A DNA stretch of 43,465 nucleotides from a virus: positions 1 to 43,465 of the IMG/VR virus record IMGVR_UViG_3300045747_000093. One strand, written 5' to 3'. The notes beneath the pieces were generated by a model, which saw only the letters and a list, made by a program, of their open reading frames with translations, made no database searches and was not told the DNA's origin. The position numbers and the translations under genes were made by a program. Each line of letters begins with the position of its first letter. Within the stretch, counting starts at the first letter, position 1. Positions 10,735-34,527 of the stretch are shown here, piece by piece.

Positions 10735-11787
10735 ATGTCTAGTTTTACTGACTGGTTACGTAGCCACTTACAAGACTATGGCCAGTTAGTAGAACCTGGT
10801 ACGCCACTGAACAATCAGTACCAGCAGTTAAAGAGTAACGTATCACAAAATGTGCCGCCATCGCAAGCCTTTAGAGACCCATCTCAACTATCGGAATGGT
10901 CACAGGCGGCAGCATTGAACGCACCCAGCTTGGGTACAATTAAAAAGTTAAACCCTAATGTTAGGAAAGCTGCATTAGAAGCTATTGATAAAGGGGCAAC
11001 TTATAAGCAGTTATGGCGAGATTTTCAAGCTTACCCATGGATGACAAAGAACGGTAAAAGAACGGTGTTAGGTGAGATACCTGATACATTAGAAAGTGAT
11101 GTATATTGGAGGCAACAGCATCCTTTAGAGCCAGGATTTGTAGATCCATTGCCCATGCACCTTAAGCACGACCAACTGTATGCGGAACAACCTGAGATGG
11201 CTAATTTGTATCTTACGCACGAACCTAATTATGAAGGTGGCACTGCTGGGTTTTTCCAAGCTCCTAACCTTATAAATTTGTTGGGGCCAGATGGTGGTAA
11301 AACGGTTGGTGGTAAAAAGACTACATTGCATGAAATAGGGCATGCTCAACAGTATAATATGAATTTGCCTGGTGGTGCTAATAGTAACCAATATACACCA
11401 AAAGAAGTGCTCAGGTGGCAAACGCAGTCCACTAAAGGGCTGCAAGATATGGTTGATAGAATAGCCAAAAGATTTGATATAAAAGACTTAGCTCAAAAAC
11501 AGTATGGTGATCCCGGGGTTATTGGTAAAATTAATGACGCTCTTTACTATAATACTAAAGGTATTGAGAATCAATACTTAAGGAATAAGCTTGGTAATTT
11601 AAGCAGGAGCACGCGTAATCCAGCTTTTGGTAAGTACTACAATGACCCTGGTGAAGCGCAGGCAAGAATGATTGATGCTAGGTCAGATTATTCACCAAGG
11701 CAGCTAATAAAAGAATCACCTATAGAAACAATGCTGAAAGATGGCTATTCATTGCAAGATATATTTAAACCACATCGTAAACCATAA
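10735..11787 (+). CDS. Polyvalent protein with zincin-like metallopeptidase domain
   Basis: 350 residues. Residues ~13-67 form a domain shared, at 39 of 54 positions, with the protein at 33457-34527. The C-terminal part carries a zinc metallopeptidase motif H199-E-I-G-H203 followed by AQQYNMNLPGG, and YYNDPGEAQARMIDAR (E307) as the likely third ligand. The HExxH...GExxAR arrangement is that of zincin-like domains of phage polyvalent proteins, which are thought to be packaged and injected with the DNA to act on host targets. It lies directly before portal, with its stop overlapping the portal ATG. Seen: motif and shared domain. Inferred: virion delivery and host protein cleavage. Confidence 0.75.
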   Translation: MSSFTDWLRSHLQDYGQLVEPGTPLNNQYQQLKSNVSQNVPPSQAFRDPSQLSEWSQAAALNAPSLGTIKKLNPNVRKAALEAIDKGATYKQLWRDFQAYPWMTKNGKRTVLGEIPDTLESDVYWRQQHPLEPGFVDPLPMHLKHDQLYAEQPEMANLYLTHEPNYEGGTAGFFQAPNLINLLGPDGGKTVGGKKTTLHEIGHAQQYNMNLPGGANSNQYTPKEVLRWQTQSTKGLQDMVDRIAKRFDIKDLAQKQYGDPGVIGKINDALYYNTKGIENQYLRNKLGNLSRSTRNPAFGKYYNDPGEAQARMIDARSDYSPRQLIKESPIETMLKDGYSLQDIFKPHRKP

Positions 11788-13982
11788 TGGCCAAACAAAA
11801 GAAACTCACTGACGACGATATACTAGCTATCATAGCCAATGAGCTATCTATGGCCGAAGCAACGTCCCAGACTAGCCAAGACTTAAGTGTTCCTCTTGAT
11901 TATTACCTTGGTAATGCTGTTGGTAATGAGCAAGAGGGCCGAAGCGCCCTAGTCTCTACCGATGTGGCAGATGCAATTGAGTGGATTATCCCACAGGTCA
12001 TGAAGTCGTTCACTCAGAATAATGAGGTGGTAATATTCGACCCCACCTCCCCAGATGATGAGAAGCAAGCGGAACTGGAATCAGAATTCGTTTACGACAT
12101 ATTAATGAAGCAAAATGATGGTTTTATATTAATCCATCAGTTTGTAAAAGACGCTCTTATGCAGCGCAATGGTATACTTAAGGTATATTATGAAAATAAT
12201 GAAGAAGTTACAACAGAGTCATATAGTGGCCTATCTGAGGAGCAATTACAGATGTTGGTGGCCGATAAGACTGTTGAGATTTTAAACTTATCTGTGACAG
12301 AACAATTTACACCAGATGGACAGCCTATTTCATTCTATGATGTCAAAATTAAAGTCACTAACAGTAACCCAAAAATATGTATTGATGCTGTCCCTCCTGA
12401 ACAGTTCCGCTTTAGTGCTCAGCATAATTCTATAAATCTTGATACTGCGCGGTTCACCAGTCATATTGTGACCAAAAGTGTATCAGACCTTATAGAAGAA
12501 GGTTATGACAAAGAGGTGGTACAAGATTTAGGTGAAGCTGATATGCAGAGGTCAGCCTATCGCTTCGGTGCGCAGAACGAAAATACCATTATACCCGCCA
12601 CATTTGTAGATGACCTATCCAGCAAACTGGTTGACGTATGTGAGTGTTTCCTTAAGCTCGATGTGAATGGTGACGGTATTGCCACGCCTATGAAGATAAC
12701 TGTTGGAAACTCCAGCCCTCCATCAGTAGTCCTCAGTAAAGAAGAAGTAGATTACAGCCCATGGGTAGCGTGTACAGCTATCATAATGTCCCATAAGTTT
12801 AAAGGCCTCAGTATTTATGACAGACTTAAACAAATTCAGGACAACAAAACCGCTCTCCTTCGTAACATTATGGACAATCTCTATTTGCAAAACAATCAGA
12901 GAAACATCATTGTTGAGGGACAGGTTAATATTGATGATATGCTTGTTTCAAGGCCTGGTGGTATTATTCGTGCTAAACGCATTGACGCTATTACTCCACT
13001 CCAGACTCCTATGATTGGTGATACTGGCTTCACAATGATGAAGTATCTAGATGAAGTCAAAGCGGGACGCGTGGGTGTATCATCCGAAGGAACTGCTACG
13101 CCACAGAACATTGGTGATCGTGTTGGCTCAGAAGGTGTTGAGCGCATGATGACAGCAAAGGAAGAACTTGTTGGTCTTATTATAAGGGTAATTTGTGAAA
13201 CCGGAATCAAACCACTTTGTACGAAAATACGTGATCTTGCAGTCAAACACCTGGACACTGTTCAGGATTTTAAGTTCAGAGGGGAATGGGTACAGGTCAA
13301 TCCTTCATCATGGAAACCAAGACTCAAAAGTACCGTACGCGTCGGCACTGGTACAGGAGATCATCAAAAACAATTAGCGGCTGTAACGCAAGTTACGCAG
13401 ATGCAATCTGCTCTAGCTCAAACTCCATTGGGTTATATGGTAGCCCCAGGCAAGGTATATAGTGCTCTTGATGACTTGTGTAAGTTTTCTGGTCTTAATG
13501 GTGCTGCTCGGTATTTTGTTGATCCTTCTAGCCCAGAGGGGCAGCAACTGGCACAGCAGGCGCAGAAGTCGTCTCAAGAAGCTAGTCAAAAGCAGGAGCA
13601 AGCCCAGATGGAGACTATCCGCCAGCAAGCCGAATTGGCGAAGTCTGCAACGACAACAGCAGAATCCATGATGCAGAATGTTCAACTCAAAGGACAGGTA
13701 GAATTAGGAAAACACCAACGTGAGATGGACAAGGCAACCTCCCAAGCTCAAATTGAAGCTCTCAAAATGGAAGTTCAAAAACAAACGTTGCTTCTTGAAG
13801 CTATTAAGACTAAGCACAAAGATGAGTTGGACAAAGAGAAAATGTTGTTGGATGCCGCGATCAAATTAACTGATATAGAAGCAAAAGCCAAAGCTGATCA
13901 GGATGCAAATTTCATAGTTAATCAGCAACTGATCCAGTCAGCGGAAGAATCAAGTGATAAGGCAGAGGGTGAAACAGAGTAA
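11787..13982 (+). CDS. Portal protein
   Basis: The dodecameric portal at the packaging vertex, docking site for terminase and adaptor. 731 residues, close to the P22-type portal length. The N-terminal region (EGRSALVSTDVADAIEWI, then YDILMKQNDGFILIHQFVK) and residues ~325-400 (WVACTAIIMSHKFKGLSIYD, then RNIMDNLYLQNNQR) match the conserved wing and stem segments of this family. From about residue 590 the protein is a long Gln/Ala/Lys-rich coiled coil (the barrel-like helix) ending in an acidic tail. Its ATG overlaps the upstream stop, and a 32-residue membrane peptide follows with the same kind of overlap. Confidence 0.92.
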   Translation: MAKQKKLTDDDILAIIANELSMAEATSQTSQDLSVPLDYYLGNAVGNEQEGRSALVSTDVADAIEWIIPQVMKSFTQNNEVVIFDPTSPDDEKQAELESEFVYDILMKQNDGFILIHQFVKDALMQRNGILKVYYENNEEVTTESYSGLSEEQLQMLVADKTVEILNLSVTEQFTPDGQPISFYDVKIKVTNSNPKICIDAVPPEQFRFSAQHNSINLDTARFTSHIVTKSVSDLIEEGYDKEVVQDLGEADMQRSAYRFGAQNENTIIPATFVDDLSSKLVDVCECFLKLDVNGDGIATPMKITVGNSSPPSVVLSKEEVDYSPWVACTAIIMSHKFKGLSIYDRLKQIQDNKTALLRNIMDNLYLQNNQRNIIVEGQVNIDDMLVSRPGGIIRAKRIDAITPLQTPMIGDTGFTMMKYLDEVKAGRVGVSSEGTATPQNIGDRVGSEGVERMMTAKEELVGLIIRVICETGIKPLCTKIRDLAVKHLDTVQDFKFRGEWVQVNPSSWKPRLKSTVRVGTGTGDHQKQLAAVTQVTQMQSALAQTPLGYMVAPGKVYSALDDLCKFSGLNGAARYFVDPSSPEGQQLAQQAQKSSQEASQKQEQAQMETIRQQAELAKSATTTAESMMQNVQLKGQVELGKHQREMDKATSQAQIEALKMEVQKQTLLLEAIKTKHKDELDKEKMLLDAAIKLTDIEAKAKADQDANFIVNQQLIQSAEESSDKAEGETE

Positions 13983-14080
13983 TGAAATGGGCAGTTCTCT
14001 ATGTGATATTTATTTTTGTGGTGGCATGGGCTGGTTTCCATTTAGGTGATGATATTTTTAACATGATATACAAAAGGTGA
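13982..14080 (+). CDS. 32-residue single-span membrane peptide
   Basis: An ATG overlapping the portal stop (TAATG) encodes MKWAVLYVIFIFVVAWAGFH followed by LGDDIFNMIYKR. Residues ~3-19 are one hydrophobic helix with aromatic residues at both ends and a basic C-terminus, so an inner-membrane peptide is likely. It could be a small pinholin-like or lysis-modulating peptide, or an entry peptide; nothing in the sequence decides. The next gene follows after four bases, with GGTGA in the overlap. Confidence 0.55.
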   Translation: MKWAVLYVIFIFVVAWAGFHLGDDIFNMIYKR

Positions 14081-14084
14081 AGCA

Positions 14085-14267
14085 ATGAATGATTATGTCG
14101 TAATAGAAAGCGTGGACTTAGGTTCTCTGTGTAAACGCGTTAACGAAGGCATGGATGATGGTTATTACCCGCTGGGCAATATTACAGTTCATGAGCACTA
14201 TGAGGAAGATGAAGAATCCAAGGTTGACCGTATCTTTTACCAAGCGATGGCGAAGTACAAACAATGA
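14085..14267 (+). CDS. Small DUF1737-like protein
   Basis: 60 residues. The pattern YVVIESVDLGSLCKRVNEGM followed by DDGYYPLGNITV is the DUF1737 signature: a short strand, then a helix beginning L..hV...h, then GaxPhGgh. DUF1737 proteins are small alpha/beta domains of unknown function found in phages and bacteria. GGTGA lies at good spacing before the ATG, and its stop overlaps the next start (ATGA). It belongs to the portal-to-scaffold gene run. Confidence 0.7.
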   Translation: MNDYVVIESVDLGSLCKRVNEGMDDGYYPLGNITVHEHYEEDEESKVDRIFYQAMAKYKQ

Positions 14268-14509
14268 ATGAATTGCAACTTGAAAATGAAATAGTTATTG
14301 GTGAAAAGGCTAGTAAAGCATGGAACCTTTGGGTTGCTGGTTACGTAGCTGTTCAACAAAATGCTTTATTTGAAGAATTCAAGCAGGCTAATTTTGGCTC
14401 CTATAATAATATTCAAGCACGTATCAATGCCATTAATGAGCTTGAACGCGCTATCAAACAAGATATAGAAACTGGCAAGTTAGCCAGTAAACAGCTAAAA
14501 GGTGAGTGA
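14264..14509 (+). CDS. Small helical protein of the head region
   Basis: 81 residues, helical, with AWNLWVAGYVAVQQNALFEE near the centre and ARINAINELERAIKQDIETG near the end. It resembles small helical genes found just before phage scaffold genes, but no function is known to me. It overlaps the previous gene by 4 bases and the next by one (TGATG), so it is clearly part of the co-translated cluster. Confidence 0.68.
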   Translation: MNELQLENEIVIGEKASKAWNLWVAGYVAVQQNALFEEFKQANFGSYNNIQARINAINELERAIKQDIETGKLASKQLKGE

Positions 14510-14703
14510 TGGTAACTCCTGTATTAGAAAGAGATGACAAGTCACGCCAGATGCTGAAAGATTATCAGGATGCAGTATCAGGCAAGACTAAAGTGAGCCA
14601 GAAGAAGCAAATGGAAATGTTGCAGGAAAGACTTGCATACGACCATCAGTTAAGAGCGGCTCAACATGGGCCTGCTAATGATATACAACCAAAAGGTGAG
14701 TAA
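14509..14703 (+). CDS. Small charged protein before scaffold
   Basis: 64 residues, charged and helical (RQMLKDYQDAVSGKTKVSQK, then QMEMLQERLAYDHQLRAAQH). The ATG at 14509 overlaps the TGA of the preceding gene; a GTG three bases earlier is also in frame. It ends one codon before the scaffold gene, with GGTGAGTAA supplying the next ribosome-binding site. No domain is recognised. Confidence 0.62.
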   Translation: MVTPVLERDDKSRQMLKDYQDAVSGKTKVSQKKQMEMLQERLAYDHQLRAAQHGPANDIQPKGE

Positions 14704-15828
14704 ATGAGTAACGAAATTAATGTCACAACCGATTCTACCCCAGTGGCGACCGGAAGTGTAACAGACCAAATATCAGCGTTGTTGATGGAAGAACAAAATC
14801 CACAACCTGTAAAGAAAGAACCTAAAGCAGCAAAGCCCAAAGCTCCAGAATCTGAGCCGGAATTACCCCCAAGCGAAGATTCAATGGACAGTGACGAAGA
14901 TGTAGAAGGTTATGATGAACCTGGTGACCCCGATGAAGTTGAGGAACCAGACTTACCTGATAATGAAGATGATGATGGTGAAACCACATGGTCTAAAGTA
15001 TTAGGCGTACCAGAAGATAAAGTTGTCCTTGATGACGATGGTGAGTTCGCAGGCTTTAAAATTAAAGTCGATGGTAAAGTTGAGGTTATTCCCACTGCTG
15101 ATCTAATAGCAGGGTTTCAGAATAACAAATCAAATACTCAAAAGAGCAAAGCTATAGCGGAAGAAAAGAAACAGCTTGAAGCACATAAAACCCAACTCTT
15201 ACAAGAGTATGGTAACAAGATTAAAGATGCTGAGGCATTAACCACTTACCTTGAGAACTCACTGGTTAAAGAGTATCAAGGTGTAGACTGGAATAACCTA
15301 CGCTACAGTAATCCTGGTGAGTATGCTGCACTGGTACAAGATTACAACATTCGTGTTGATGAAATACAAAAGATTAAAACGGCTACTGACACTGTAAAAC
15401 AGCAAGAGATAGAAAATTACCAACAAGAGTTTGGGCAAAGAACGCAAGCATATATACAAGGTCAAGTTCAACAAGCGATAGAGAAACACCCAGAATGGCA
15501 AGATACAAAGAAGTTTAAAGCAGCCCTTGGGGATATGCAAAACTTTGTAACTGAAACTTATGGATTCTCCGCTCAAGAATTTGCAGATGTAAAAGATGCC
15601 CGTATATTGGACTTAATTTTGGATGCTAAAAGGTATCGTGCTGGTAAGACAGTCGCAGAGCAAAAACTCGCTAAACCTGTTGGTAAGTTTCAAAAACCTA
15701 CTGGAAAGGTTAAGCCATCCAAAACCAAATTAGAGCAACTGACTAGCAAAGCTAAGGCTTCAAGCGGTTATGCAAAACACGCAGCGGAAACGGATGCGGT
15801 GGCAGAGTTGCTCAAAAACATTTACTAG
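14704..15828 (+). CDS. Scaffolding protein
   Basis: The internal scaffold that guides procapsid assembly. 374 residues with the usual composition: the first ~95 residues are Pro/Glu/Asp-rich and disordered (PESEPELPPSEDSMDSDEDV), then a short beta segment (DDDGEFAGFKIKVDGKVEVI), then long Gln/Lys/Glu coiled coils (KAIAEEKKQLEAHKTQLLQE). The C-terminus is basic (KPVGKFQKPTGKVKPSKTKL), as expected for the part that binds coat protein. It lies immediately before the capsid gene, which fixes the call. Confidence 0.88.
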   Translation: MSNEINVTTDSTPVATGSVTDQISALLMEEQNPQPVKKEPKAAKPKAPESEPELPPSEDSMDSDEDVEGYDEPGDPDEVEEPDLPDNEDDDGETTWSKVLGVPEDKVVLDDDGEFAGFKIKVDGKVEVIPTADLIAGFQNNKSNTQKSKAIAEEKKQLEAHKTQLLQEYGNKIKDAEALTTYLENSLVKEYQGVDWNNLRYSNPGEYAALVQDYNIRVDEIQKIKTATDTVKQQEIENYQQEFGQRTQAYIQGQVQQAIEKHPEWQDTKKFKAALGDMQNFVTETYGFSAQEFADVKDARILDLILDAKRYRAGKTVAEQKLAKPVGKFQKPTGKVKPSKTKLEQLTSKAKASSGYAKHAAETDAVAELLKNIY

Positions 15829-15840
15829 GGGTAAATTAAA

Positions 15841-16872
15841 ATGAGTTCCGCAAATCTGGACAGTGCCGATCTGAAAGCGGCTACATACAAAGGCTTGATC
15901 CGCGAAGATGTAATGAATCGCATCTTTGATATAAGCCGAATTCCACTGCCATTTACCGATTTGATTGGTAGTGATACGCACAAAAATGAATACTGTGAAT
16001 GGACGCTTGATGCATTAGCATCACCAAACATTGCCAATGCTGTAGTTGACGGCTCAGATGCTGGATCAACTAACACTGTTATTGGTACACGTGTTGGTAA
16101 CCATTCACAAATCTCAACCAAGGTTGTCCGCGTCTCTTTCCGTGCTGATGCATCTGATGTTATTGGTCGTACTAAAGAAACTTCTTATCAGGTAATGAGA
16201 CGCCAACAGGAGTTACGTCGTGATGTTGATGCAATCGCTCTTGTTAACCAAGCTTCAGTTGCAGACGATGGCGGCTCTACAGCAGGTAAAGTCGGTGGTT
16301 TGCCTAGTTGGTTGGCTTCTCATAACTATGGTGGTACCGCTGGTGGGTTCTCTACTTCTACTGGTCTTACTGTGGCCCGTACTCCTACTGCAGCTCGTGC
16401 ACTTACAGAAACTCTTGTTCGAGATGCAGTACAAGCTGTTTACCAAGACGGTGGCGATCCTACTGTTATGATGTCAATTCCTGGCGTCATCCGTAAATTC
16501 TCTGAATACCTGTTCACATCATCTGCCAGAGTGGCAACATTGATGGCTGACCAAGGTAAGTCCACGGAAGCGGCTACTGCTCTTGGTTCTGTTAACGTGT
16601 TTGTGACTGACTTTGGTACTTTGAAATTAGTTCCAAACCGTCTTCAGCAAACCCATACTGACTCTGGCTCAACCCAGGTTGCTGATGTGTTTATTCTTGA
16701 TCCTTCCTATCTGTCCCTTTCTTATATTAAAGGCTACAGAACAGAAGACTTGGCTAGAACAGGTTTGGCTGAAAACAAACACATGTCAGTTGACTGGTCT
16801 TTAAAAGTATTGACTGAAAAAGCGCATGCAATCATTGGTGATATTAGCACCACGGCTGCTGTAACCCTTTAA
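15841..16872 (+). CDS. Major capsid protein (SU10-like, DUF5309 type)
   Basis: 343 residues, HK97-fold coat protein. The features fit the SU10/DUF5309 family: FDISRIPLPFTDLIGSDTHK near residue 25, TRVGNHSQISTKVVRVSFRA near 80, RRQQELRRDVDAIALVNQAS near 115, and a C-terminal SVDWSLKVLTEKAHAIIGDI. GGGG precedes the ATG at good spacing. It is followed at once by a strong terminator, as is common for the most abundant late product. Neighbouring scaffold and portal genes confirm the head module. Confidence 0.92.
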   Translation: MSSANLDSADLKAATYKGLIREDVMNRIFDISRIPLPFTDLIGSDTHKNEYCEWTLDALASPNIANAVVDGSDAGSTNTVIGTRVGNHSQISTKVVRVSFRADASDVIGRTKETSYQVMRRQQELRRDVDAIALVNQASVADDGGSTAGKVGGLPSWLASHNYGGTAGGFSTSTGLTVARTPTAARALTETLVRDAVQAVYQDGGDPTVMMSIPGVIRKFSEYLFTSSARVATLMADQGKSTEAATALGSVNVFVTDFGTLKLVPNRLQQTHTDSGSTQVADVFILDPSYLSLSYIKGYRTEDLARTGLAENKHMSVDWSLKVLTEKAHAIIGDISTTAAVTL

Positions 16873-16904
16873 ATAAACAAACAGAATAATACCTGTATAG
16901 TTTT

Positions 16905-16946
16905 CCTACTGTGGTTATTCACCTTTCCACAGTAGGTTTTAATTTT
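16905..16946 (+). terminator. Intrinsic terminator after the major capsid gene
   Basis: CCTACTGTGG (16905-16914) and CCACAGTAGG (16927-16936) form a 10-bp perfect stem with a 12-base loop, followed by TTTTAATTTT. It is a textbook rho-independent terminator. It probably limits read-through from the capsid gene into the tail genes. Its T-run reaches the ribosome-binding site of the next gene. Confidence 0.88.
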
Positions 16947-16956
16947 GGAGAATGAA

Positions 16957-17328
16957 ATGGTAAGTACAACGACAACACCTGTAGCACCTAAGAAAGTTGC
17001 TCCACACCAAGAAGCTATTGAAAAAACACCTGTGGAAAATACATCCAACATACACAATGATGACCGTATTATCAGCACGCAAGAGCAAGCTGAGCGTGAC
17101 TGGTTAGCAGAGCCCAAAGACCTGTTAGCTGAAAGAGCTTATGCAAGAGCAGAGGGTAAAACTGTTGCTCCAAGAGCACCTTTGGCACATGTTGAAACTG
17201 TCCGTGTAAGAAACGTTTTTACACAGAATGTTGCACTTGAAAGTGGTATATTACTTCCAGGTGAAGAAGGCATTGCAACTATAGCTGAGTCCAGTAATCT
17301 TGTTGGAAAATATTTAGAGGTTCTGTAA
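16957..17328 (+). CDS. Small structural-region protein
   Basis: 123 residues. The first ~45 are Thr/Pro/Lys-rich and likely disordered (STTTTPVAPKKVAPHQEA). The last ~45 (VETVRVRNVFTQNVALESGI, then LLPGEEGIATI, ending KYLEVL) form a small beta domain like those of short phage proteins after the capsid gene. I chose ATG 16957 because GGAG lies 6 bases upstream; the longer TTG frame starts inside the terminator. The exact role (connector or decoration) is unknown. Confidence 0.7.
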   Translation: MVSTTTTPVAPKKVAPHQEAIEKTPVENTSNIHNDDRIISTQEQAERDWLAEPKDLLAERAYARAEGKTVAPRAPLAHVETVRVRNVFTQNVALESGILLPGEEGIATIAESSNLVGKYLEVL

Positions 17329-17660
17329 TGAGTGAGTCTGCTTTTGATGGCGTTATTAAATCTGAGTTTCTATCTCACATTGATGAAGTCTGTCATAGGC
17401 AGACTCAACCATCAGAGAATTTAATACTTGCAAGGAACGCCGAATTAAGAAAGAATCCTGGTGTTATATACGACCTTGGTGAACAAGGCGGTGACACGTG
17501 GGGAAGAATGGTGGCATCAATACCAATGAATATGTTTGAAAAAGCTATTCGTGATGGTTATGCGCTTAATCATAAAGATACAGATATAGCAGCTACCGCA
17601 ATGATGAATTATTTATTAACGCCAGATGGCAAAGCCTGTCTGGTTCAGGGGAAACGTTAA
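17328..17660 (+). CDS. Conserved phage structural-region protein
   Basis: 110 residues. The core NLILARNAELRKNPGVIYDL followed by GRMVASIPMNMFEKAIRDGY resembles a protein family found after the capsid gene in several podoviruses. In those, an RNAELRKNPG stretch is followed by a Leu/Ala-SIP motif. No enzyme motif is visible. It overlaps both neighbours by one base (TAATG). It is probably a minor head or head-tail component, from location only. Confidence 0.68.
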   Translation: MSESAFDGVIKSEFLSHIDEVCHRQTQPSENLILARNAELRKNPGVIYDLGEQGGDTWGRMVASIPMNMFEKAIRDGYALNHKDTDIAATAMMNYLLTPDGKACLVQGKR

Positions 17661-18223
17661 TGGGCCAGTTACGCTATACCGCAGCAGAAGATCAAACCAC
17701 TTTAAAAACAGCAGACGTAAGATTAGCTGAATCTTTTCAAGATGGTCGCAGAGGTTTAATTGCTGGAGCTAATACTAATCCTCACGTATCTGGCTCAGAG
17801 ACTTATGCAGCCTATGAAGCTGGATATGCACTAGTTACACCTGAAGGCCATTTTGATGGTGGTGCCTTAGCAATCCCAATCACCATGCCGGATTTGGCGG
17901 ATGAAACGATTGAGGATGCCAGTGCTCTCATTGTTGCCGCTGGCTTAGTCGTCGGCAAGATTACCGGCGCTTTTGGCGTAGTTACCAGTCAATTACCCGC
18001 TGCCGCAGCCAAGACGCAACCGGGCGATGTAGTGACGTTTACGGCGAAAGTAGAAGTCCCTGACCTGGAAGGCAAGACCGCCGCCGAAGCCGATGAAGCC
18101 TTGATTACAGCACATTTGGTATCTGGCGTAGTCACCGGCACAACTGGCGTGGTGACCGTTCAACTACCGCTTGCCGCAGCACTCGCTGTTAGCGGTTCAG
18201 CCGTTGCTTATACCATTGCTTAA
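17660..18223 (+). CDS. Rmf/CrpP-like N-terminus fused to two PASTA-like domains
   Basis: 187 residues. Residues ~20-60 (FQDGRRGLIAGANTNPHVSG, then YAAYEAGYA) follow the short helical G..G...G..xNPh....W..G pattern of Rmf/CrpP-like proteins. Two PASTA-like repeats follow: MPDLADETIEDASALIVAAG to about residue 127, then VPDLEGKTAAEADEALITAH to the end, each closing on a ThTSQLPAAAA/VTVQLPLAAA strand and a GD/GSxVxh strand. PASTA domains usually bind peptidoglycan fragments or act as spacers. G+C rises sharply where the PASTA part begins (35 of 60 bases at 18001-18060), which suggests a recombination joint at the domain border. A cell-wall-binding virion protein is inferred. Confidence 0.7.
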   Translation: MGQLRYTAAEDQTTLKTADVRLAESFQDGRRGLIAGANTNPHVSGSETYAAYEAGYALVTPEGHFDGGALAIPITMPDLADETIEDASALIVAAGLVVGKITGAFGVVTSQLPAAAAKTQPGDVVTFTAKVEVPDLEGKTAAEADEALITAHLVSGVVTGTTGVVTVQLPLAAALAVSGSAVAYTIA

Positions 18224-18331
18224 GTCATGACCGCTTTATACCTTAAACGAAGCGTTAACGTACTGACACGGGGCAACCCAGACATCCGTTCGCACGTATT
18301 GAAAACTAAAAGTATTTTGGAGAATAATAAC

Positions 18332-18817: not shown

Positions 18818-18819
18818 TC

Positions 18820-20391: not shown

Positions 20392-20543
20392 AATATAAAT
20401 GCGCTATTTGTGGCTGGACAGGCGAAGAAAATGAGCTATACGACGATTATGCTATAGACGCTGATGGTGGTGAGATAGGGTCTAACACTGTATGCCCTGA
20501 ATGCTCAGGCTGGTCTTGTGAGAAAGTTGCAGATGATGATTAA
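20388..20543 (+). CDS. 51-residue zinc-ribbon (rubredoxin-like) protein
   Basis: The ATG overlaps the upstream stop (ATGA) and encodes MKYKCAICGWTGEENELYDD followed by an acidic segment, then CPECSGWSCEKVADDD. Two CxxC knuckles (C5-C8 and C36-C39) make a rubredoxin-like zinc ribbon; an extra cysteine sits at C44. Such small ribbons occur in phages without a known job and may bind nucleic acid or metal. It overlaps the start of the next gene. Confidence 0.68.
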   Translation: MKYKCAICGWTGEENELYDDYAIDADGGEIGSNTVCPECSGWSCEKVADDD

Positions 20544-20970
20544 GTTATTAATACTATTTCTTTTAGCAGGCTGCTCGGCTCAATATGACAGTTATCAACC
20601 TGCATCCAAGCTACCCGCTGGCTTTGACAAGGAAGCCATTAACCGCTATTTGTTAACCCAGTATAAGAACGTCCCGAATGAGCAAGTGCGTGTCATCTAT
20701 TACCGTGATGACAAGTATCTTAGCGATGAAATTGTTGCCAATGGGAGCTACACGGGTGCAGTTGCTAATGGGTTACAGATTGTTACTAATTGCGCGGCTA
20801 TACAATGCAATCAGGTGGTTTTAGCGCATAACCATCCTGGTGAATACTTTGCTTCAGCCAGCGGTATCGACTATGACAATGCCGATAAATTTGATGACAT
20901 GATGGCACAGGCGAAGATAACAGCGGCGTATGTAGTCGTGGGAACGTCAGAGGTTAATTGGATATATTAA
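20533..20970 (+). CDS. Lipoprotein with RadC-like JAB/MPN domain
   Basis: 145 residues. The N-terminus MMIKLLILFLLAGCS is a lipoprotein signal with lipobox LAGC, lipid-anchored at C14. The rest is a JAB/MPN metalloprotease-like fold related to RadC: QVVLAHNHPGEYFASASGID supplies H99, H101, S110 and D113, the zinc-binding HxH...S..D pattern, though with one extra residue before the Ser. I chose ATG 20533 (GTG 20518 and ATG 20536 are alternatives). Such domains normally cleave isopeptide bonds in the cytoplasm; an outer-membrane-anchored version in a phage is odd. The next lipoprotein gene overlaps it by one base. Periplasmic action is inferred from the signal. Confidence 0.72.
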   Translation: MMIKLLILFLLAGCSAQYDSYQPASKLPAGFDKEAINRYLLTQYKNVPNEQVRVIYYRDDKYLSDEIVANGSYTGAVANGLQIVTNCAAIQCNQVVLAHNHPGEYFASASGIDYDNADKFDDMMAQAKITAAYVVVGTSEVNWIY

Positions 20971-21323
20971 TGAAAACATTTGAACTAATATCAGATTCTA
21001 TAAAGGCCACCTTTCTGGTTATCTTTGTGTTGCCTTTCATCCTGCTAGTGCTTGTCACGGGTTGCTCAACCACACCTAAAAACTGCCAACAAGCTGCCTG
21101 GGAAGATGCTGGCCAAGCGATGGCAAATGTGCAATACCAGCTTAAAGAACAATTAGAGTGGGACAAATACGTAAACTGCACCATAACCAACGGGTGCGCA
21201 AATGCTCCGCTTTTATATTCAGTCAATTCGGGCTTAACGTCAGGCCCGTACAGTGATACCCATTACCGTGGTTTAAGTCCACGGCAAGCCTATGATAAGG
21301 CCATGTTGCTATGTGGAAAGTAA
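20970..21323 (+). CDS. Second small lipoprotein
   Basis: 117 residues. The first ~30 residues (SIKATFLVIFVLPFILLVLV) form a long hydrophobic signal ending in lipobox LVTGC, giving lipidation at C32. The mature part is polar, with five more cysteines (CQQAAWEDAG, NCTITNGCANAPL, final LCGK) that may form disulfides in the periplasm. ATG 20970 overlaps the preceding TAA, and its last 13 bases overlap the pectate-lyase gene. An o-spanin or superinfection-exclusion lipoprotein is possible, but no partner i-spanin is obvious. Confidence 0.65.
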   Translation: MKTFELISDSIKATFLVIFVLPFILLVLVTGCSTTPKNCQQAAWEDAGQAMANVQYQLKEQLEWDKYVNCTITNGCANAPLLYSVNSGLTSGPYSDTHYRGLSPRQAYDKAMLLCGK

Positions 21324-22654
21324 TCGTCTTACTGTTAATTTCATGCCAAGCATTAGGCGCGGCATTTCCTGGCGCGGAAGGCGGCGGGGCGTTGTCTATC
21401 GGTGGCCGTAATGGGGCAGTTGTTGAAGTTACTAATCTTAATAATTCTGGTGCTGGTAGTCTTAGAGCTTGCGCTGAAGTGCAGAGAAACCCCAGAACTT
21501 GCGTTTTCAGGGTGGGCGGATCAATCCACTTATTAACCCCCATTGCTATCAGAAACCCTTATATCACCATTGCCGGACAAACGGCGCCGGGGGGTGGCAT
21601 ACAACTTGAGTCAAAAGGCGTTGCTTCCGTAATACTAAACATCAGCACCCATGATGTGATTATCCAGTACGTTAAACTCAGAAAAGGCTATGCAGCCAGT
21701 TGTACGTATGCAAGCCAAGGTTGTGGCACTAATCTTGGCATTTGGGGCGGCTATAACATCATCGTTGACCACTTGTCGTTAGCCTGGTCTATGGATGACT
21801 CGGTGAATTACTGGGGTGTTATGCGTGATACCACTATCCAGAACAGTATTGTTGCTGAAGGTTTAAAAGTTCAGTCCACGGCGTTTAACATCGGTAATGG
21901 TGCCGGTGGTAATATTGATATCCACCATAATTTATTAATGACGTTTCACTTACGAATCCCAGAATATCAGGGCGTTGCCAGTTCTCGACTGGTAAATAAC
22001 ATTTTCTACAATAACGAAGTGTTGAACGTGCAGTTGTTAACCGGCACCACGGGCAAAGTTGATTCTATTGGTAATGTATTTAAGATGGGGCCACTTAGCC
22101 AAACCGCAGCGAATAAAAGCCCTGAGTTGGTCGGTGGGGGGAAAACGTCTTTGTATATGCTAAGTAATAGGGGTCGTCATCAAGCTAATCCAGCGGGAAA
22201 CCAGTGGGGCATGGCTTTTGTGGGAAAGTATAATGATGTGACAACCGGGCCTTGGCCGACTTCAGGCAGACGCGCTACACCACTGACTAAGACATTTATC
22301 CCGATTGTCCCCACCTCAACGGCGGGCTTGATTGACAGCTTATTGCCGACGGTAGGCGCATCCAGACGGCTCGATTGTGCAGGTGGCTGGGTGATGAATA
22401 GGGATAGTGTGGACACTCGCTTAGTCAAACAAGTCCAGACTAACACCGGCAATAAGACGATTATCGCCAAAGAATCAGACGTGGGCGGTTATCCAACATT
22501 GGATAAAGGCACACCCTGTCCTGACAACGATAAGGACGGAATGCCGAACGCTTGGGAGCTTGGGCATAAACTCAACCCTAATAACGCAGCAGACCGCAAC
22601 TACACGGCGGCTAATGGTTATAGGAACCTCGAAAACTACCTGGCGGGCTTATGA
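21311..22654 (+). CDS. Secreted pectate-lyase-like beta-helix protein
   Basis: 447 residues. A Sec signal peptide (MWKVIVLLLISCQALGA) is followed by AFPGAEGGGALSIGGRNGAV, the typical start of bacterial pectate lyase family proteins. Then come VVEVTNLNNSGAGSLRACAE, ITIAGQTAPGGGI, and beta-helix coils with IVDHLSLAWSMDDSVN, the region of the calcium-binding Asp residues. The C-terminus (CPDNDKDGMPNAWELGHKLN) is a calcium-binding DxDxDG motif as in secreted plant-wall enzymes. The target may be an acidic exopolysaccharide rather than pectin. Phage spikes do not need signal peptides, so this looks like a captured bacterial secreted enzyme. Composition is G+C-rich compared with the early genes. 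Confidence 0.82.
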   Translation: MWKVIVLLLISCQALGAAFPGAEGGGALSIGGRNGAVVEVTNLNNSGAGSLRACAEVQRNPRTCVFRVGGSIHLLTPIAIRNPYITIAGQTAPGGGIQLESKGVASVILNISTHDVIIQYVKLRKGYAASCTYASQGCGTNLGIWGGYNIIVDHLSLAWSMDDSVNYWGVMRDTTIQNSIVAEGLKVQSTAFNIGNGAGGNIDIHHNLLMTFHLRIPEYQGVASSRLVNNIFYNNEVLNVQLLTGTTGKVDSIGNVFKMGPLSQTAANKSPELVGGGKTSLYMLSNRGRHQANPAGNQWGMAFVGKYNDVTTGPWPTSGRRATPLTKTFIPIVPTSTAGLIDSLLPTVGASRRLDCAGGWVMNRDSVDTRLVKQVQTNTGNKTIIAKESDVGGYPTLDKGTPCPDNDKDGMPNAWELGHKLNPNNAADRNYTAANGYRNLENYLAGL

Positions 22655-23245: not shown

Positions 23246-23248
23246 CAA

Positions 23249-23911: not shown

Positions 23912-23915
23912 GACA

Positions 23916-24578: not shown

Positions 24579-24582
24579 GACC

Positions 24583-26226: not shown

Positions 26227-26234
26227 GGTAAATT

Positions 26235-26792: not shown

Positions 26793-27223
26793 GTAAATAC
26801 AGATTTGAAGTACTACATCCCTATACCATTATCTCAAAGTGGGAAGAACTGCTTCCTCATATTGAGCGGATAGTTAAAAAGAACAACGAGGAATTTACAA
26901 CCGAGTCTATCAAAGGACGTGCAGTTTCTGGTAATGGACTAATGATTGCTATTTATGATGGAGATAGCATTGTTGCAGTTGCTACTGTAGAGGTGGTCGT
27001 CTATGACAGTGGTTTAAGGTCACTACTTATCCCCGTATTGGTTGGTGCAGAAGTGGTTGGATGGGGTGAAGAACTTTTGGGACTATGTAAAGATATTGCT
27101 GTGCAGCTTAGTTGTACAGAATTACGAGCAATGTCTATCCGCAATGGTTGGATGAAGTTATTAAAAGATTTTGGCTGGCAAGAAAAACACGCAGTGATCG
27201 TTATGTCACTGGAGGATAAATGA
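26789..27223 (+). CDS. GNAT-like acetyltransferase
   Basis: 144 residues. The order of elements fits the GNAT fold: GLMIAIYDGDSIVAVATVEV (central strands), LLIPVLVGAEVVGWGEELLG (replacing the acetyl-CoA loop region), then LSCTELRAMSIRNGWMKLLK and FGWQEKHAVIVMSLED, the typical helix-strand ending. Similar proteins are encoded next to podovirus tail genes, perhaps modifying virion or host proteins. The classic Q/RxxGxG/A loop is not clear. Low-G+C composition resumes here. Confidence 0.65.
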   Translation: MSKYRFEVLHPYTIISKWEELLPHIERIVKKNNEEFTTESIKGRAVSGNGLMIAIYDGDSIVAVATVEVVVYDSGLRSLLIPVLVGAEVVGWGEELLGLCKDIAVQLSCTELRAMSIRNGWMKLLKDFGWQEKHAVIVMSLEDK

Positions 27224-27750
27224 AAGAACGTAAATTAACGCATAAGCAACTACTTGAAGTGGTGCACTATATTCCATCCAATGGGCTATTTATACGCATA
27301 CAATCTTCAACTAGGCATAGAGCTGGTGAAGTAATGGGTACATTACGTAATGGCTATATATGCATAGGAGTAGGTGGAAAACAATATTACGCTCATAGGT
27401 TAGCTATTTTCTATATGACTGGTATGTGGCCAAAAGAAGGGGTTGATCATATTAACCATATAAAAACTGATAATACATGGGCCAATTTACGTGAAGCTAC
27501 TGGATATGACAACGCTCAAAATATTACATTAAGTAGCAGAAATACGTCAGGTTTTAATGGCGTTACATTCTGCAAAGAACGTAATAAATGGCAAGCGCAG
27601 ATAAAAGCTAATGGAAAATCCATGATATTAGGCCAATTCCATAATATTGCAGATGCTATTAAGTGTAGAAAGCAAGCAAATATTAAGTATGGGTTTCATG
27701 AAAATCATGGGTATCTAGTAGAAACAATGAAAATTGATGGAGAAGGGTAA
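27220..27750 (+). CDS. HNH homing endonuclease with AP2-type DNA-binding domain
   Basis: 176 residues. Residues ~55-100 carry the HNH_3 nuclease: YAHRLAIFYMTG then GVDHINHIKTDN (D76, H77, N79), NLREATGYDNAQN. Residues ~108-160 are an AP2-like DNA-binding domain (SGFNGVTFCKERNKWQAQIK, then GQFHNIADAI). Free-standing enzymes of this kind spread by cutting unoccupied sites. It overlaps the upstream gene by 4 bases and the next by one, so it is now tightly fitted into the late operon. Confidence 0.88.
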   Translation: MKERKLTHKQLLEVVHYIPSNGLFIRIQSSTRHRAGEVMGTLRNGYICIGVGGKQYYAHRLAIFYMTGMWPKEGVDHINHIKTDNTWANLREATGYDNAQNITLSSRNTSGFNGVTFCKERNKWQAQIKANGKSMILGQFHNIADAIKCRKQANIKYGFHENHGYLVETMKIDGEG

Positions 27751-28637: not shown

Positions 28638-28639
28638 TT

Positions 28640-29056: not shown

Positions 29057-29508
29057 CAATCGCAGCAGCCGCCGCTTCATTAGGAACTACAATGGGCCTC
29101 TCAGCTGGAGCCGCTGGAGCTATGGGTACTATGGCATCTGGGGCATTAGGCGCAGCAGGAACAGCTGGTATTTCAAGACTGATTGGTGGTGGGGGTGGTA
29201 GCCAGCAGGGTGTTGGTGGTAGTATGCTGCAAGGTATGCAGGACTACGTTAAGAATATTGATATGTCTAGGCCAGAGCCACCAAAAGAAGATATACAACC
29301 CAACTTCGCCCGTAACCCCATTCCAGCGCCTAATGACCAGGGTAATCAATCCCCAACACAACAGTTCAGCCCAATGCCTGGAGCAAACTTTAGTCCTGTG
29401 GCTCAAAGTCCTTCACAAGGATTTGGACAAATGCCACAGTTTGGCCAAGACTCAGGTGGGCAGATTTTAGGCATACAAGATTTTATACGGTCACTAACTA
29501 GGGGCTAA
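29053..29508 (+). CDS. Ala/Gly-rich ejection-type protein
   Basis: 151 residues. The first ~55 are Ala/Gly/Met-rich with glycine-zipper spacing (TMGLSAGAAGAMGTMASGAL), able to form membrane-inserting helices. The rest is Pro/Gln-rich and flexible (SPTQQFSPMPGANFSPVAQS). Such proteins are often DNA-ejection factors that line a channel through the envelope. Its neighbours (low-complexity virion proteins and the lysozyme-domain protein) support this. Confidence 0.66.
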   Translation: MTIAAAAASLGTTMGLSAGAAGAMGTMASGALGAAGTAGISRLIGGGGGSQQGVGGSMLQGMQDYVKNIDMSRPEPPKEDIQPNFARNPIPAPNDQGNQSPTQQFSPMPGANFSPVAQSPSQGFGQMPQFGQDSGGQILGIQDFIRSLTRG

Positions 29509-29510
29509 TC

Positions 29511-30788
29511 ATGGCACAAGATAACACAGCTGGCTTAGGCACTATGCTGGCATTTTTACAACAAGGTTCTCAGTCTGGCAGTGCCGCAATGCCTGCTATG
29601 CCGGATTACTCCCAAATTAACATGCCACAAATGCCACAATACCAATCACACAGTGGTGGTAGCATAGGTGGCCTACTTAAGGGCATTGTTGGTAATACAA
29701 CAAGTAGTTTACTAAGTGATTACCTTGGCTCTAAATTGCAGAAGCATATAGACAAAGGTACAGCTGAAGATACCCGTGAAGCATATGCTCCAGTACTTAA
29801 AAATATGCGCGATAATGCTACTAATGATTCAGATAAGCAATTTTATGGCAACCAATTAGAAGCGTTAAATACTGGCAATCCAACCATAGTTGGCAATACT
29901 ATGGAATCTATTAACAAACGTATACTTGAAGCTTCTAAGTTAACTAATGAGCAGCGTAACTGGGCCGATCCACAGCAACAACAACGTATGATCGCAGAAG
30001 ATGCCCATAAGAACCAGCCAACATTACGTACAATGGGTGTGCCTGGTAGAGAAGGTTACAAGGTTAATTTCTACCTTGATGGTAATGGCCAACCGGTACC
30101 AGTTGGTGAACCATTTAAAGAGGGCGGTGTTAATGTAAATGTTGGTGCACCAAAATCTTGGATTATGCCAACTGATGCCGAGAAGATGGTTAACCAACAA
30201 GGGCAGCACCCACCAGTTGGTACCGAATGGGGCTCACCAGAAGCTAAAGGTTACAGCGTAGCTACAGCTAAGAATCAGGATGATATAAAACAAAGTGGTA
30301 TAACAACTAACTTTACTAATGAACTTAATAACTTATTATTTAAACCAAAAACTGGATTATATGCTAATTACGGCTCTGAAACAGCTGAGAATAAAGTTCA
30401 ACAAACTGTTATACAGAACTGGCAAAAGTATGCTCAAACTGATCCTAGGTACAAGCAAGCAGATGACTACATACAATCTAATTTAGCACCAATGATACGC
30501 TCTCTTGGCACAGTTGGTAACTTATCTGATGCTGACTTAGAAAGAGCTAGTGGCTTATTGCCAGTTATTACAGGTGTTAATATAGATACACCAACTGTAG
30601 CTCGTGGTAAGATGGAGAGATTTAATAAAGTAATTGCAGCAGCTAATCAAGTTAATCCTGTAACTGGTAAGATAAATGGCATAACACCAGAAATATTGAA
30701 TGGCGCTATTGGTGAACCTAAACCACAAGGTTGGACTGACCAAGATGAGCAAGACTACCAGGCTTTACTTAAATCGAGGCAACAATAA
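29511..30788 (+). CDS. Internal virion / ejection protein candidate
   Basis: 425 residues. The first ~75 are Gln/Met/Ser-rich with a short hydrophobic glycine patch (GGSIGGLLKGIVGNTTSSLL), as in ejection proteins. The remainder is helical and polar (DDIKQSGITTNFTNELNNLL, then MIRSLGTVGNLSDADLERAS). No catalytic motif is visible. It ends one base into the start of the lysozyme-domain gene (TAATG), so the two are co-translated and likely work together during DNA entry. Confidence 0.66.
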   Translation: MAQDNTAGLGTMLAFLQQGSQSGSAAMPAMPDYSQINMPQMPQYQSHSGGSIGGLLKGIVGNTTSSLLSDYLGSKLQKHIDKGTAEDTREAYAPVLKNMRDNATNDSDKQFYGNQLEALNTGNPTIVGNTMESINKRILEASKLTNEQRNWADPQQQQRMIAEDAHKNQPTLRTMGVPGREGYKVNFYLDGNGQPVPVGEPFKEGGVNVNVGAPKSWIMPTDAEKMVNQQGQHPPVGTEWGSPEAKGYSVATAKNQDDIKQSGITTNFTNELNNLLFKPKTGLYANYGSETAENKVQQTVIQNWQKYAQTDPRYKQADDYIQSNLAPMIRSLGTVGNLSDADLERASGLLPVITGVNIDTPTVARGKMERFNKVIAAANQVNPVTGKINGITPEILNGAIGEPKPQGWTDQDEQDYQALLKSRQQ

Positions 30789-33454
30789 TGAAAGCAGATG
30801 AGCTTCTAACATTACTACAAGAGCAAGGTTTCCAACCTCACCATGCGGCCGGTATTGTTGGTAATGCTCAACAAGAGAGTAGCTTAAACCCAACTGCCGT
30901 TAATACTAAGTCTGGTGCATTTGGTCTAGGGCAGTGGCTAGGCTCAAGAAAAACTCAACTTTATAATTTTGCTAAGCAAAATAATATGAGCGCTTCTGAC
31001 CCACGGTTACAAGTTGCATTCATAAAGCATGAGGTGGATAACGATGAGGCATCAGCTGGTGCTGCACTAGCTAATACGAAAACACCTGCAGAGGCGGCTG
31101 TGGTGTTTTCTAATCGTTATGAACGAGCTGGTAAGGATGAACGTAATAATGCTAATAGAATTAACGTTGCTAATCAAGTTATGAATACAATCATAAAACC
31201 TGCAAATGCTAGTGAGAAGTCATACATACCAACTCGTGAAGAGTTTATGGCTATGCGTAGAAATCCAGCACCAAAAGCACCTGTAATACAAAATTCAGAT
31301 AAAGGCTACATACCAACTCGTGAAGAGTTTATGCAAATGAAGCAAGGCCTTGATGCTAACATAGAAAAAGGCGCTGATGCTGTGCTAAACCTTGACCCTA
31401 GTAAGTTGGTGGATAAAGCTAAACCAGTTGTAGACCAATTTGCTACACCAGTACATCAAGGTATGGAGCATGTGGTATCGTCTGTACCAGATCAAATGCT
31501 ATCTAATGAACTAGCTGCATATCGTAGAGGACCTGCTGCATATAAGCGTTGGCAAGAAGTACAGAAGATGTCTCCAATGCATAAGGCTATGATCTCTGCT
31601 GGGCATGAAACATCTAACTTAATTAAGGGTGTTAATACATTAGGTTATAACCTGGCTGGTATGTCTGCAGATAAGTGGAACCAAGAGCATCCAAGTCTTG
31701 TTGGTCCAGAGTTTGCACAATCCATGATGGCTAAGACTAACGCCATAGAGGATCAGCAGCCAGAAGATACTAAACTATACCAAGAATTTAAAGATAGTCA
31801 AGGTTGGCCGGGCGCATTTGGTGCGATGTTACCGTACATGGTGACGGGTGAATTACTTGGTAAACCATTTGCTAAAGCGGGTGGTAAGATAGTAGGTACT
31901 TTAGCTGAAGCGCCATCTGCGGCGATACGGACTGGCAAGGCAGCATCTGAGTCTATCGTAGATAAGTTGGCTGCATCTAATAGCACACCACTTAAAAACA
32001 TCTTTGGTAAAGTTCAGGCTGAAATAACCAACCCATGGAAAGAGAAGGCTATAGCAGAGTCTGCTAAGCCGACAGTTACCAATCCATATCTTGCTGGTCG
32101 TGGTGGTGAGTTAGTTGGTAATACATTATTAGGTGCTACAGAAGGCGGGCTTAATCCTGAGAATGATGTTAGGTCTGGCGCTATTAGTTCTGCATTTGGT
32201 ACTTTAGCTGGTCAGTGGTTAAAACCTGGGTTGGTAAGGCCACCTAACTTCAGGGAAAATAACCCTGTAGAACAGGCAGCTATTAAGTGGTACCAAAGTA
32301 AAGGTGGTAGAACTTTACCAGGCTTGGAACGTGGCTCAAAAGCTTTACAGACATTTGAAAGAACACTATCGTCAGATACTACTTATGCTGATCCACTTCA
32401 TCGTATAATGGAAGCTAACAATATTGTGAATAATAATATTGCGGCGGAATCTATGGGTATGAAACGAACTGCTTCACAGGCATTCACACCAGAACATCTA
32501 ATGGATCATAAGCAGGCTCTTGGTAAAGAGTATGATGCATTAGAGGCAGGTACTATAGCTAACTTTACACCACTGGATAAACGTAATCTGGTAACACATG
32601 CTAATAAGCTTACCATGGACCAAACACAAGCTGGTAAAGTATTAGCCTCTGATGTAAAAGATTATCTGCGACAAATAGACCAACTGACGCCACAACGTAA
32701 TCCATTGACTGGCCAGATACAGGCTATGAATATTACTGGGTCGGATTTTAAAGACTTACGTAGTAGGTTGCAGTCTGATATAACTGGTGCGTTCCAACAA
32801 GGTAATCGCCAACGGGCCGATGCGCTTAAGCCAATACTAAAAACAGTTGATGATGCTGTAGAACGTGGTGTAGAAAAGAAAGGCGGCACTGCTGGTGTAG
32901 CACAATGGAAAGACCTTAATGAACGGTATGCTATTACTAATCTGGTATTAGACAATGGCCTATCTGTAACTGGGCAACTTGATCCAGCTAAACTATACCA
33001 ACATTTAGAGAACAATGACATAAGACGTATTGTGCTTGGTGAAGGTGGTAGAGTTAAAGACTTGCATAAACTAGCTCAAGTTGAGTATATGACTAAGCAC
33101 CAGGCTGGACCTGACATATCTGGTTTGACTCAAAACAATATGTTCAATAGAACAGCTAGTTCACCAATGGAAAAAATGTTGATGAGCCAGTATGCTGGTC
33201 TACCAGGATTTAATCTTGCATCTAATGGATTGCTAAAAATATACGCATCGGATAGGTGGTCACCAGCGCGGCATGGTGCATTACATATGTCTGGCAAGAA
33301 CTTTGGTAATCCTGTGATGTATACTAGAGCAGATGAGCAAGCTAACAAACGACACGTAAAGTATGGTGAGGCAGCTATAAGTGCAGCAACATACATACCA
33401 AAGAAACTCAGAGGTATGTATGATTGGGTGGAAGAGAAGTTATCTGGAGAATAA
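30788..33454 (+). CDS. Large internal virion protein with N-terminal lysozyme domain
   Basis: 888 residues. Residues ~1-115 match the phage tail lysozyme family: ELLTLLQEQGFQPHHAAGIV, GNAQQESSLNPTAVN with the likely catalytic Glu, then GAFGLGQWLGSRKTQLYNFA. Two exact copies of YIPTREEFM follow (residues ~146 and ~174). The remainder is a long helical, Ala/Lys/Gln-rich ejection protein. A domain of this kind would locally cut peptidoglycan so the genome can pass. The C-terminus (DWVEEKLSGE) is duplicated downstream at 34537-34569. Confidence 0.82.
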   Translation: MKADELLTLLQEQGFQPHHAAGIVGNAQQESSLNPTAVNTKSGAFGLGQWLGSRKTQLYNFAKQNNMSASDPRLQVAFIKHEVDNDEASAGAALANTKTPAEAAVVFSNRYERAGKDERNNANRINVANQVMNTIIKPANASEKSYIPTREEFMAMRRNPAPKAPVIQNSDKGYIPTREEFMQMKQGLDANIEKGADAVLNLDPSKLVDKAKPVVDQFATPVHQGMEHVVSSVPDQMLSNELAAYRRGPAAYKRWQEVQKMSPMHKAMISAGHETSNLIKGVNTLGYNLAGMSADKWNQEHPSLVGPEFAQSMMAKTNAIEDQQPEDTKLYQEFKDSQGWPGAFGAMLPYMVTGELLGKPFAKAGGKIVGTLAEAPSAAIRTGKAASESIVDKLAASNSTPLKNIFGKVQAEITNPWKEKAIAESAKPTVTNPYLAGRGGELVGNTLLGATEGGLNPENDVRSGAISSAFGTLAGQWLKPGLVRPPNFRENNPVEQAAIKWYQSKGGRTLPGLERGSKALQTFERTLSSDTTYADPLHRIMEANNIVNNNIAAESMGMKRTASQAFTPEHLMDHKQALGKEYDALEAGTIANFTPLDKRNLVTHANKLTMDQTQAGKVLASDVKDYLRQIDQLTPQRNPLTGQIQAMNITGSDFKDLRSRLQSDITGAFQQGNRQRADALKPILKTVDDAVERGVEKKGGTAGVAQWKDLNERYAITNLVLDNGLSVTGQLDPAKLYQHLENNDIRRIVLGEGGRVKDLHKLAQVEYMTKHQAGPDISGLTQNNMFNRTASSPMEKMLMSQYAGLPGFNLASNGLLKIYASDRWSPARHGALHMSGKNFGNPVMYTRADEQANKRHVKYGEAAISAATYIPKKLRGMYDWVEEKLSGE
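31223..31249 (+). repeat. 27-base direct repeat, copy 1 (YIPTREEFM)
   Basis: The codons for YIPTREEFM are repeated without a base change at 31307-31333, 84 bases later. Identity at the third positions shows either a recent duplication or selection on the DNA. Confidence 0.8.
31307..31333 (+). repeat. 27-base direct repeat, copy 2 (YIPTREEFM)
   Basis: Second exact copy of the repeat, placed between the lysozyme domain and the long helical part. In the protein it reads KGYIPTREEFMQMKQG versus KSYIPTREEFMAMRRN in copy 1. Confidence 0.8.
33422..33454 (+). repeat. Direct repeat copy 1: 3' end of the lysozyme-domain gene
   Basis: The last 33 bases of the 888-aa gene (GATTGGGTGGAAGAGAAGTT and the end) recur with five or six changes at 34537-34569, after the next gene. 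The pair therefore flanks exactly one gene. Confidence 0.75.
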
Positions 33455-33456
33455 TT

Positions 33457-34527
33457 ATGGCTGGTATACTAGAATTTTTAAAAAAGGCTAAAGAGGACTA
33501 TTCTCAGCTAATAGAAAAGGGTGCGCCTTTAAACAATCAGTACCAACAACTAAAATCTAATATTAGTCAAAATGTACCACCAACATCTGCCTATCGTGAT
33601 CCTCGCCAGATGCAAGAGTGGGCTACAGCCGCTGCATTAAATGCACCAATAATTGGAGCTGTACGTAAACCTATGGATACCCTTGATGATTCACAAATTA
33701 TGAAGGAGTTCCATTCATATTTTAATACTAATTTACCACTAGAAGAGGCATATAAACTTCGTCAGACACCAGAATTTATTGATTTAAAACAAAAAGCATA
33801 CGCTATAATGGATAAAAATAAGAAATTAGGTAAATCTAAAATTTTAGCTGAAAATGAAGTGGACCCTAAATCAATAGAGTATGGAACTGGTCCTGGTTAT
33901 GATGCCAATAGAGTAACTCCTAAAGAGTTTAAGCATATGGCGCCAAATATGTCAGAAGAGGCTAAAGCTGCACATATAGTACGTAGTTATGGTATAATCC
34001 CTAATGATACTAATGAGGTATACTTTGGGCCTAATGGCCCTAGTTCTATACTAGATGCTTTCAATAACAATATGGCACTAGATAAAAGTAAGTTTAACAT
34101 TGGTAGTAAAGCATATCCAAAACTATTAGAGTCATCTAAAGTAAAATTAGCACGTCCTATGTATATTCGTAGAGACGAAGGGTTTTCAAACTTTAATTCT
34201 AATGCTAAAAATACTGAACCACCTAATTTTTTAGTATCTGGGTCAGTTATAGACCCAAGAGTAAAAAGTCAATATAATAATAATTATAGTCGTAGTGCAG
34301 ATACTAATGTACCTAGTTTTATTTATAAACTAGAGCCAGGTAGTGAGGTGTACCACCCTGGTAATCTAGCAGATCCAAATGAAGTTATAGCAACTAGAGA
34401 ACTATTAAATAAATCTAAGCACATGAGTAGACGAGAGTATTTAAAGCATGTAGCTAAAGGGGCAGCACCATTTGCTATAAGTGGATTGGGTATACAGCAA
34501 ATGGTAAACCAAAAAGATAAGAAGTAG
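33457..34527 (+). CDS. Polyvalent protein with possible ADP-ribosyltransferase domain
   Basis: 356 residues; ATG 33457 has GGAGA upstream. Residues ~14-67 (DYSQLIEKGAPLNNQYQQLK, then NAPIIG) match the zincin gene product at 10735-11787 in 39 of 54 positions. Residues ~225-315 could be an R-S-E type ADP-ribosyltransferase: RPMYIRRD (R238), FLVSGSVID (S261/S263) and FIYKLEPGSEVYHPG with DPNEVIATREL (E309). The C-terminus has SRREYLKHVAKGAAPFAISG, like a twin-arginine motif but at the wrong end. The gene is flanked by a duplicated end of the previous gene, suggesting a recent insertion. Enzymatic activity is inference. Confidence 0.68.
   Translation: MAGILEFLKKAKEDYSQLIEKGAPLNNQYQQLKSNISQNVPPTSAYRDPRQMQEWATAAALNAPIIGAVRKPMDTLDDSQIMKEFHSYFNTNLPLEEAYKLRQTPEFIDLKQKAYAIMDKNKKLGKSKILAENEVDPKSIEYGTGPGYDANRVTPKEFKHMAPNMSEEAKAAHIVRSYGIIPNDTNEVYFGPNGPSSILDAFNNNMALDKSKFNIGSKAYPKLLESSKVKLARPMYIRRDEGFSNFNSNAKNTEPPNFLVSGSVIDPRVKSQYNNNYSRSADTNVPSFIYKLEPGSEVYHPGNLADPNEVIATRELLNKSKHMSRREYLKHVAKGAAPFAISGLGIQQMVNQKDKK

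Follow-up and report, generated by a model that had tools for sequence, protein, structure and literature searches.

Two proteins of a podophage-like virus begin with the same leader of about 70 residues, and continue into C-terminal regions that are unrelated to each other. The window analyzed here is the complete 43,465-base record of this virus. We call the two proteins effector 1 and effector 2, and consider it somewhat probable that their leader is a lineage-specific virion-loading signal, packaging both for delivery with the DNA. Five observations support this reading: the shared leader is under selection, the C-termini behind it are unrelated, one of these is homologous to zincins, both genes sit among virion genes, and the same arrangement recurs in other phages with another leader and swapped enzymes.

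A leader shared by two proteins

Effector 1 (10735..11787, + strand, 350 aa) consists of the leader, an LPD23-like region and a zincin, and its gene lies between the terminase large subunit gene (terL) and the portal gene. Effector 2 (33457..34527, + strand, 356 aa) has the leader, a C-terminal region that matches no family, and a hydrophobic C-terminal segment. Both open reading frames were present at these coordinates. That of effector 2 has a second possible start, an in-frame TTG at 33424; the ATG at 33457 is the one that aligns with the effector 1 start, and it is preceded by TGGAG.

Residues 1–71 form leader copy A in effector 1 (10735..10947, + strand) and copy B in effector 2 (33457..33669, + strand), with 59% identity across the 71 aa. 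Comparing the whole proteins by blastp yielded one significant alignment, over residues 1–100 (46% identity, E=3e-28); the sole further match was trivial, 12 residues long (E=6.9). The leader similarity is beyond chance, scoring 244 Smith-Waterman points against a maximum of 53 among 200 shuffles. The first-pass annotation had counted agreement at 39 of 54 aligned positions (residues 14–67), and our count was identical.

Over residues 13–70 the two copies are 60% identical in DNA (60, 81 and 38% at the three codon positions), synonymous sites are saturated, and the amino acid is the same at 39 of 58 positions. Saturation at synonymous sites with retention of the protein sequence indicates an old duplication, with purifying selection on the protein at both sites. 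Origin of the leader by a recent copying event or gene conversion is ruled out by the same saturation.

The leader domain was absent from all other open reading frames of the window, its ejection proteins included, and from those of the related phages Ss1 and VA-RY-3. Our search for relatives in phages, viral contigs and genomes found none beyond this virus; the only hit was IMG/VR contig 3300045970_000176, which is 100% identical to the window across the 13 kb compared. The first-pass annotation had proposed searching with the domain alone and listing its C-terminal partners. Since that search returned this virus only, the partner variety of the exact domain stands at two. One match from a motif scan was rejected as a false positive, lying inside a large tail-sheath-like protein. 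The window leader matched no known domain in Pfam, PHROGs, NCBIfam or PDB, and at a Pfam E value of 10 the leaders gave nothing except a sub-threshold TfoX_N.

Genome setting

The + strand encodes the terminase, the portal and capsid (both of SU10 type), the scaffold and an ejection protein that carries a lysozyme domain, and both effector genes lie within this rightward virion gene block. On the left, terL (8356..9762, + strand; phrog_2, E=2.1e-24) precedes effector 1, whose last base is the first base of the SU10-type portal gene (11787..13982, + strand; PF23899, E=3.3e-171). Farther along are the scaffolding protein (14704..15828, + strand; phrog_3927, E=7.9e-36), which we propose as the leader's docking partner, and the SU10-type major capsid protein (15841..16872, + strand; PF17236, E=9.1e-65). 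On the right, a 425-aa protein (29511..30788, + strand) matched no family in profile searches; judging by its position, in a gene order paralleling that at Ss1 orf22, it is a probable ejection or internal protein. The 888-aa product of the adjoining gene (30788..33454, + strand) is a probable ejection protein, with an N-terminal phage lysozyme domain (PF18013, E=5.9e-34) and homology to Ss1 orf23 (SS1_23, E=5e-38). Effector 2 starts 2 bases past this gene.

By portal sequence, the named phages nearest to this virus are Cronobacter phage Ss1 (48% identity) and Vibrio phage VA-RY-3 (46%). In both of them the portal gene comes directly after terL, without an effector 1 gene, and in Ss1 other proteins follow the ejection gene. 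Relative to these two phages both effector genes are accessory.

Several other genes of the window deserve mention. Within the virion gene block, a RadC-like JAB domain protein (20518-20970; PF04002, E 7.5e-8) bears a lipoprotein-like signal (LLAGC); it is followed by a further small lipoprotein-like open reading frame (20958-21323) and by a pectate-lyase-like protein (21311-22654; phrog_27797, E 2e-49) whose N-terminus is signal-peptide-like. There is also a pair of endonuclease genes, HNH (27220-27750) and GIY-YIG (34566-34940), the latter on the opposite strand directly beyond effector 2.

The C-terminal regions

Effector 1 carries the zincin motifs HEIGHAQQ and, downstream, GEAQAR. It aligns with LPD23/zincin proteins of other phages over HExxH and the downstream GExxAR (E 2.7e-7; hhalign 96%, E 3e-9), and this homology upholds the original reading of the first protein as a zincin, even with no direct Pfam match. 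The region ahead of the zincin motifs shows a weak alignment to the LPD23 portion of locus L080. AlphaFold modeling of effector 1 from its single sequence reached a pLDDT of 38, too poor for a fold search.

Effector 2 had been taken for a possible ADP-ribosyltransferase (ART). An R-S-E order is indeed visible by eye (MYIRR, VSGS, PNEV). No match was found in Pfam, NCBIfam, PHROG, PDB or ART-group profiles, nor to the ART-like groups of the second leader family described below, so that the putative assignment comes down to motif resemblance and is not supported. The protein's end (34418-34524) reads HMSRREYLKHVAKGAAPFAISGLGI, a twin-arginine-like motif together with the most hydrophobic stretch of the protein. 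A protein of Sulfitobacter phage phiGT1, gp5, likewise ends in a hydrophobic segment (KKYGIAGAATVLGV).

An independent leader in other phages

A weak match between the effector 1 zincin and phage ctnlZ23 (MW202710) was the route to a different leader, termed leader II. The LPD23 and metallopeptidase proteins with which effector 1 aligns belong to this leader II family. MW202462, a sister of MW202710, has the same leader, 78% identical, ahead of a C-terminus that is ART-like by motif only. Leader II, of about 100 residues, was present in 68 environmental viral contigs from a viral-contig scan, and in the three phage records MW202462, MW202544 and MW202710; the genome collection searched yielded no copy. 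There is one copy per record (a second match in one record falls within the same open reading frame). Behind leader II, 13 of 54 proteins matched ART-PolyVal, 6 matched PBECR5 and 4 matched LPD23, with single matches to GNAT and metallopeptidase. C-terminal DNA is unrelated in 108 of 171 leader II pairs, and the leader is alignable at full length in every one of these 108. A constant leader with interchangeable effectors, as first suggested for the window, thus recurs with a different leader in about 70 other phage genomes and contigs.

Gene positions also recur. In 39 of 59 testable loci, terL lies 0.3–2.2 kb downstream of the leader II gene. In a leader II subfamily (L064:8001-9617) the effector gene is instead last in a rightward block, behind proteins of 412, 480 and 647 aa; it comes directly after the 647-aa protein and before convergent genes. 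These two positions, beside terminase and last in a rightward block, are common to leader II loci and the window. Homology of the upstream proteins at this locus to the ejection proteins of the window was rejected, as there was no meaningful match and only a similar gene order.

Homology between the two leaders was also rejected, at an hhalign probability of 0.2% and with only a non-significant 18-column resemblance. In the absence of detectable homology, leader II bears on the window leader by analogy only. The leader II structure model, built from 30 sequences, had a pLDDT of 52, again too poor for a fold search.

A further hint comes from phage phiGT1. The C-terminus of its gp5, which is of the ART-PolyVal type (L083:4918-6081), matches the ART-PolyVal query, and its leader region matches the N-terminal part of gp19 (16421-17980 in the same locus), annotated as an injection protein. 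This match scored 81, against 67 for the best shuffle (0/1000). The shared segment is missing from the gp19 homolog of pCB2047-A; it looks like a mobile segment.

Proposed loading function and alternatives

By the loading reading, the effectors would be made late, together with the head and ejection genes. Inside the procapsid, their leader would probably bind to the scaffolding protein, by analogy with phage P22 (PMC8402733), and once docked would package two different proteins, the zincin and the unclassified second one. Both would be released from the particle alongside the DNA, and would act on the host at an early stage of infection. Each of these steps, from scaffold binding and packaging to ejection and enzymatic action inside the host, is our inference. 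Gene position, the leader II family and the phiGT1 match make an injection or loading tag more likely. The lack of the leader in the window's own ejection proteins counts against it, and predicted structures are too weak for showing a docking fold.

Three alternatives were weighed. The leader could act after ejection, inserting in or crossing the envelope or binding a trans-periplasmic conduit, and so deliver the C-terminal part to the cytoplasm. The window leader is predicted, at low confidence, to be mostly helical and has an alanine-rich stretch, AAALNAP, ahead of the effector; the end of leader II is similar (EAAMTVAPVAG). These features fit such a role, as does the phiGT1 case, in which an annotated injection protein has the matching leader region. 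However, hydropathy falls short of that of a membrane helix throughout the window leader (the best 19-residue values are 0.16 and 0.66), and we regard a post-ejection role as improbable.

A trifle less probable still is a leader without any packaging role, serving as a pro-domain or partner-binding domain that silences the enzymes in the producer cell or targets them to one host partner. The strong purifying selection on both copies would fit any common binding partner. Against this, a single family of leader II fronts zincin, ART, nuclease and GNAT, making a shared inhibitor or target unlikely, and the gene positions point to the virion.

That the shared region is a functionless leftover from domain duplication, or a seam at which recombination exchanges C-terminal cassettes, agrees with the sharp junction of leader II after about 100 residues, beyond which the DNA is unrelated, but is very unlikely given the 67% amino-acid identity kept at residues 13–70 of the window copies despite saturated synonymous sites, the leader II dN/dS of 0.04–0.16, and upstream DNA that often aligns less well than leader II itself.

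Comparison with known systems

Internal proteins of T-even phages are diverse, and only their capsid targeting sequence (CTS) is conserved; in T4 it recruits the internal proteins to the scaffolding core (PMC3012670). Like the T4 CTS, the window leader would be one short N-terminal signal, borne by otherwise dissimilar and presumably host-acting proteins of a single phage. It differs in length (about 70 aa, against about 10 aa for the CTS) and in sequence. T4-like cleavage at the leader motif QL[VI]E, where the next residue is P or K, is doubtful: no prohead protease was recognized among the window proteins searched, and it is a proline that follows in copy A.

In P22, gp7 and gp20 attach to procapsids through their N-terminal parts, and assembly of the ejection proteins needs scaffold (PMC8402733). 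The P22 ejection proteins gp7, gp16 and gp20 are thus a podophage case of scaffold-dependent loading via an N-terminal part (for gp7 and gp20), like the one proposed here. To our knowledge they have no single common leader.

Polyvalent proteins constitute a known effector repertoire, which includes small LPD23/zincin, ART-PolyVal and PBECR forms (Iyer et al. 2017, PMC5512222). Effector 1 resembles them in its LPD23-zincin homology, and leader II proteins in their matches to ART-PolyVal, PBECR5 and LPD23. Whereas many-effector polyvalent proteins are very large and multidomain, the proteins considered here have about 230–630 aa behind a constant leader, and the window effectors (350 and 356 aa) have one effector region each. 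The passages of that survey consulted here describe no such leader (PMC5512222).

MuF polymorphic toxins (PMC5576092) similarly join a constant, virion-linked N-terminal domain to variable C-terminal enzymes, metallopeptidase and ART among them. Unlike in those toxins, no MuF domain was matched in either leader by Pfam, and no small immunity-like open reading frame lies downstream of the window effectors: the portal gene abuts effector 1, and the convergent GIY-YIG gene meets effector 2. ARTs encoded near terminase and portal genes have been argued to be head-packaged (PMC9503650).

The effector repertoire (polyvalent proteins) and the principle of loading (CTS; MuF toxins) were therefore known already. 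We found no description of a private, non-MuF leader common to different small effectors in the literature searched, which was mostly outside subscription journals. Virion-delivered phage effectors are usually recognized via a large multidomain architecture or MuF/portal fusions. It is an evenly balanced question whether private loading leaders have arisen repeatedly among short-tailed phages with P22/SU10-type heads, each bringing interchangeable early effectors, be it a protease, an ADP-ribosyltransferase, a nuclease or an acetyltransferase, into the virion, as a form of polymorphic delivery based on neither MuF nor portal fusion. A conserved leader marking small cargo proteins would let phage cargo be listed from sequence, by finding the leader and reading the C-termini behind it. 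Such a leader would also offer a ready-made tag for getting proteins into podophage particles, and it makes directly testable how polyvalent-type enzymes enter the head, a question so far approached by inference.
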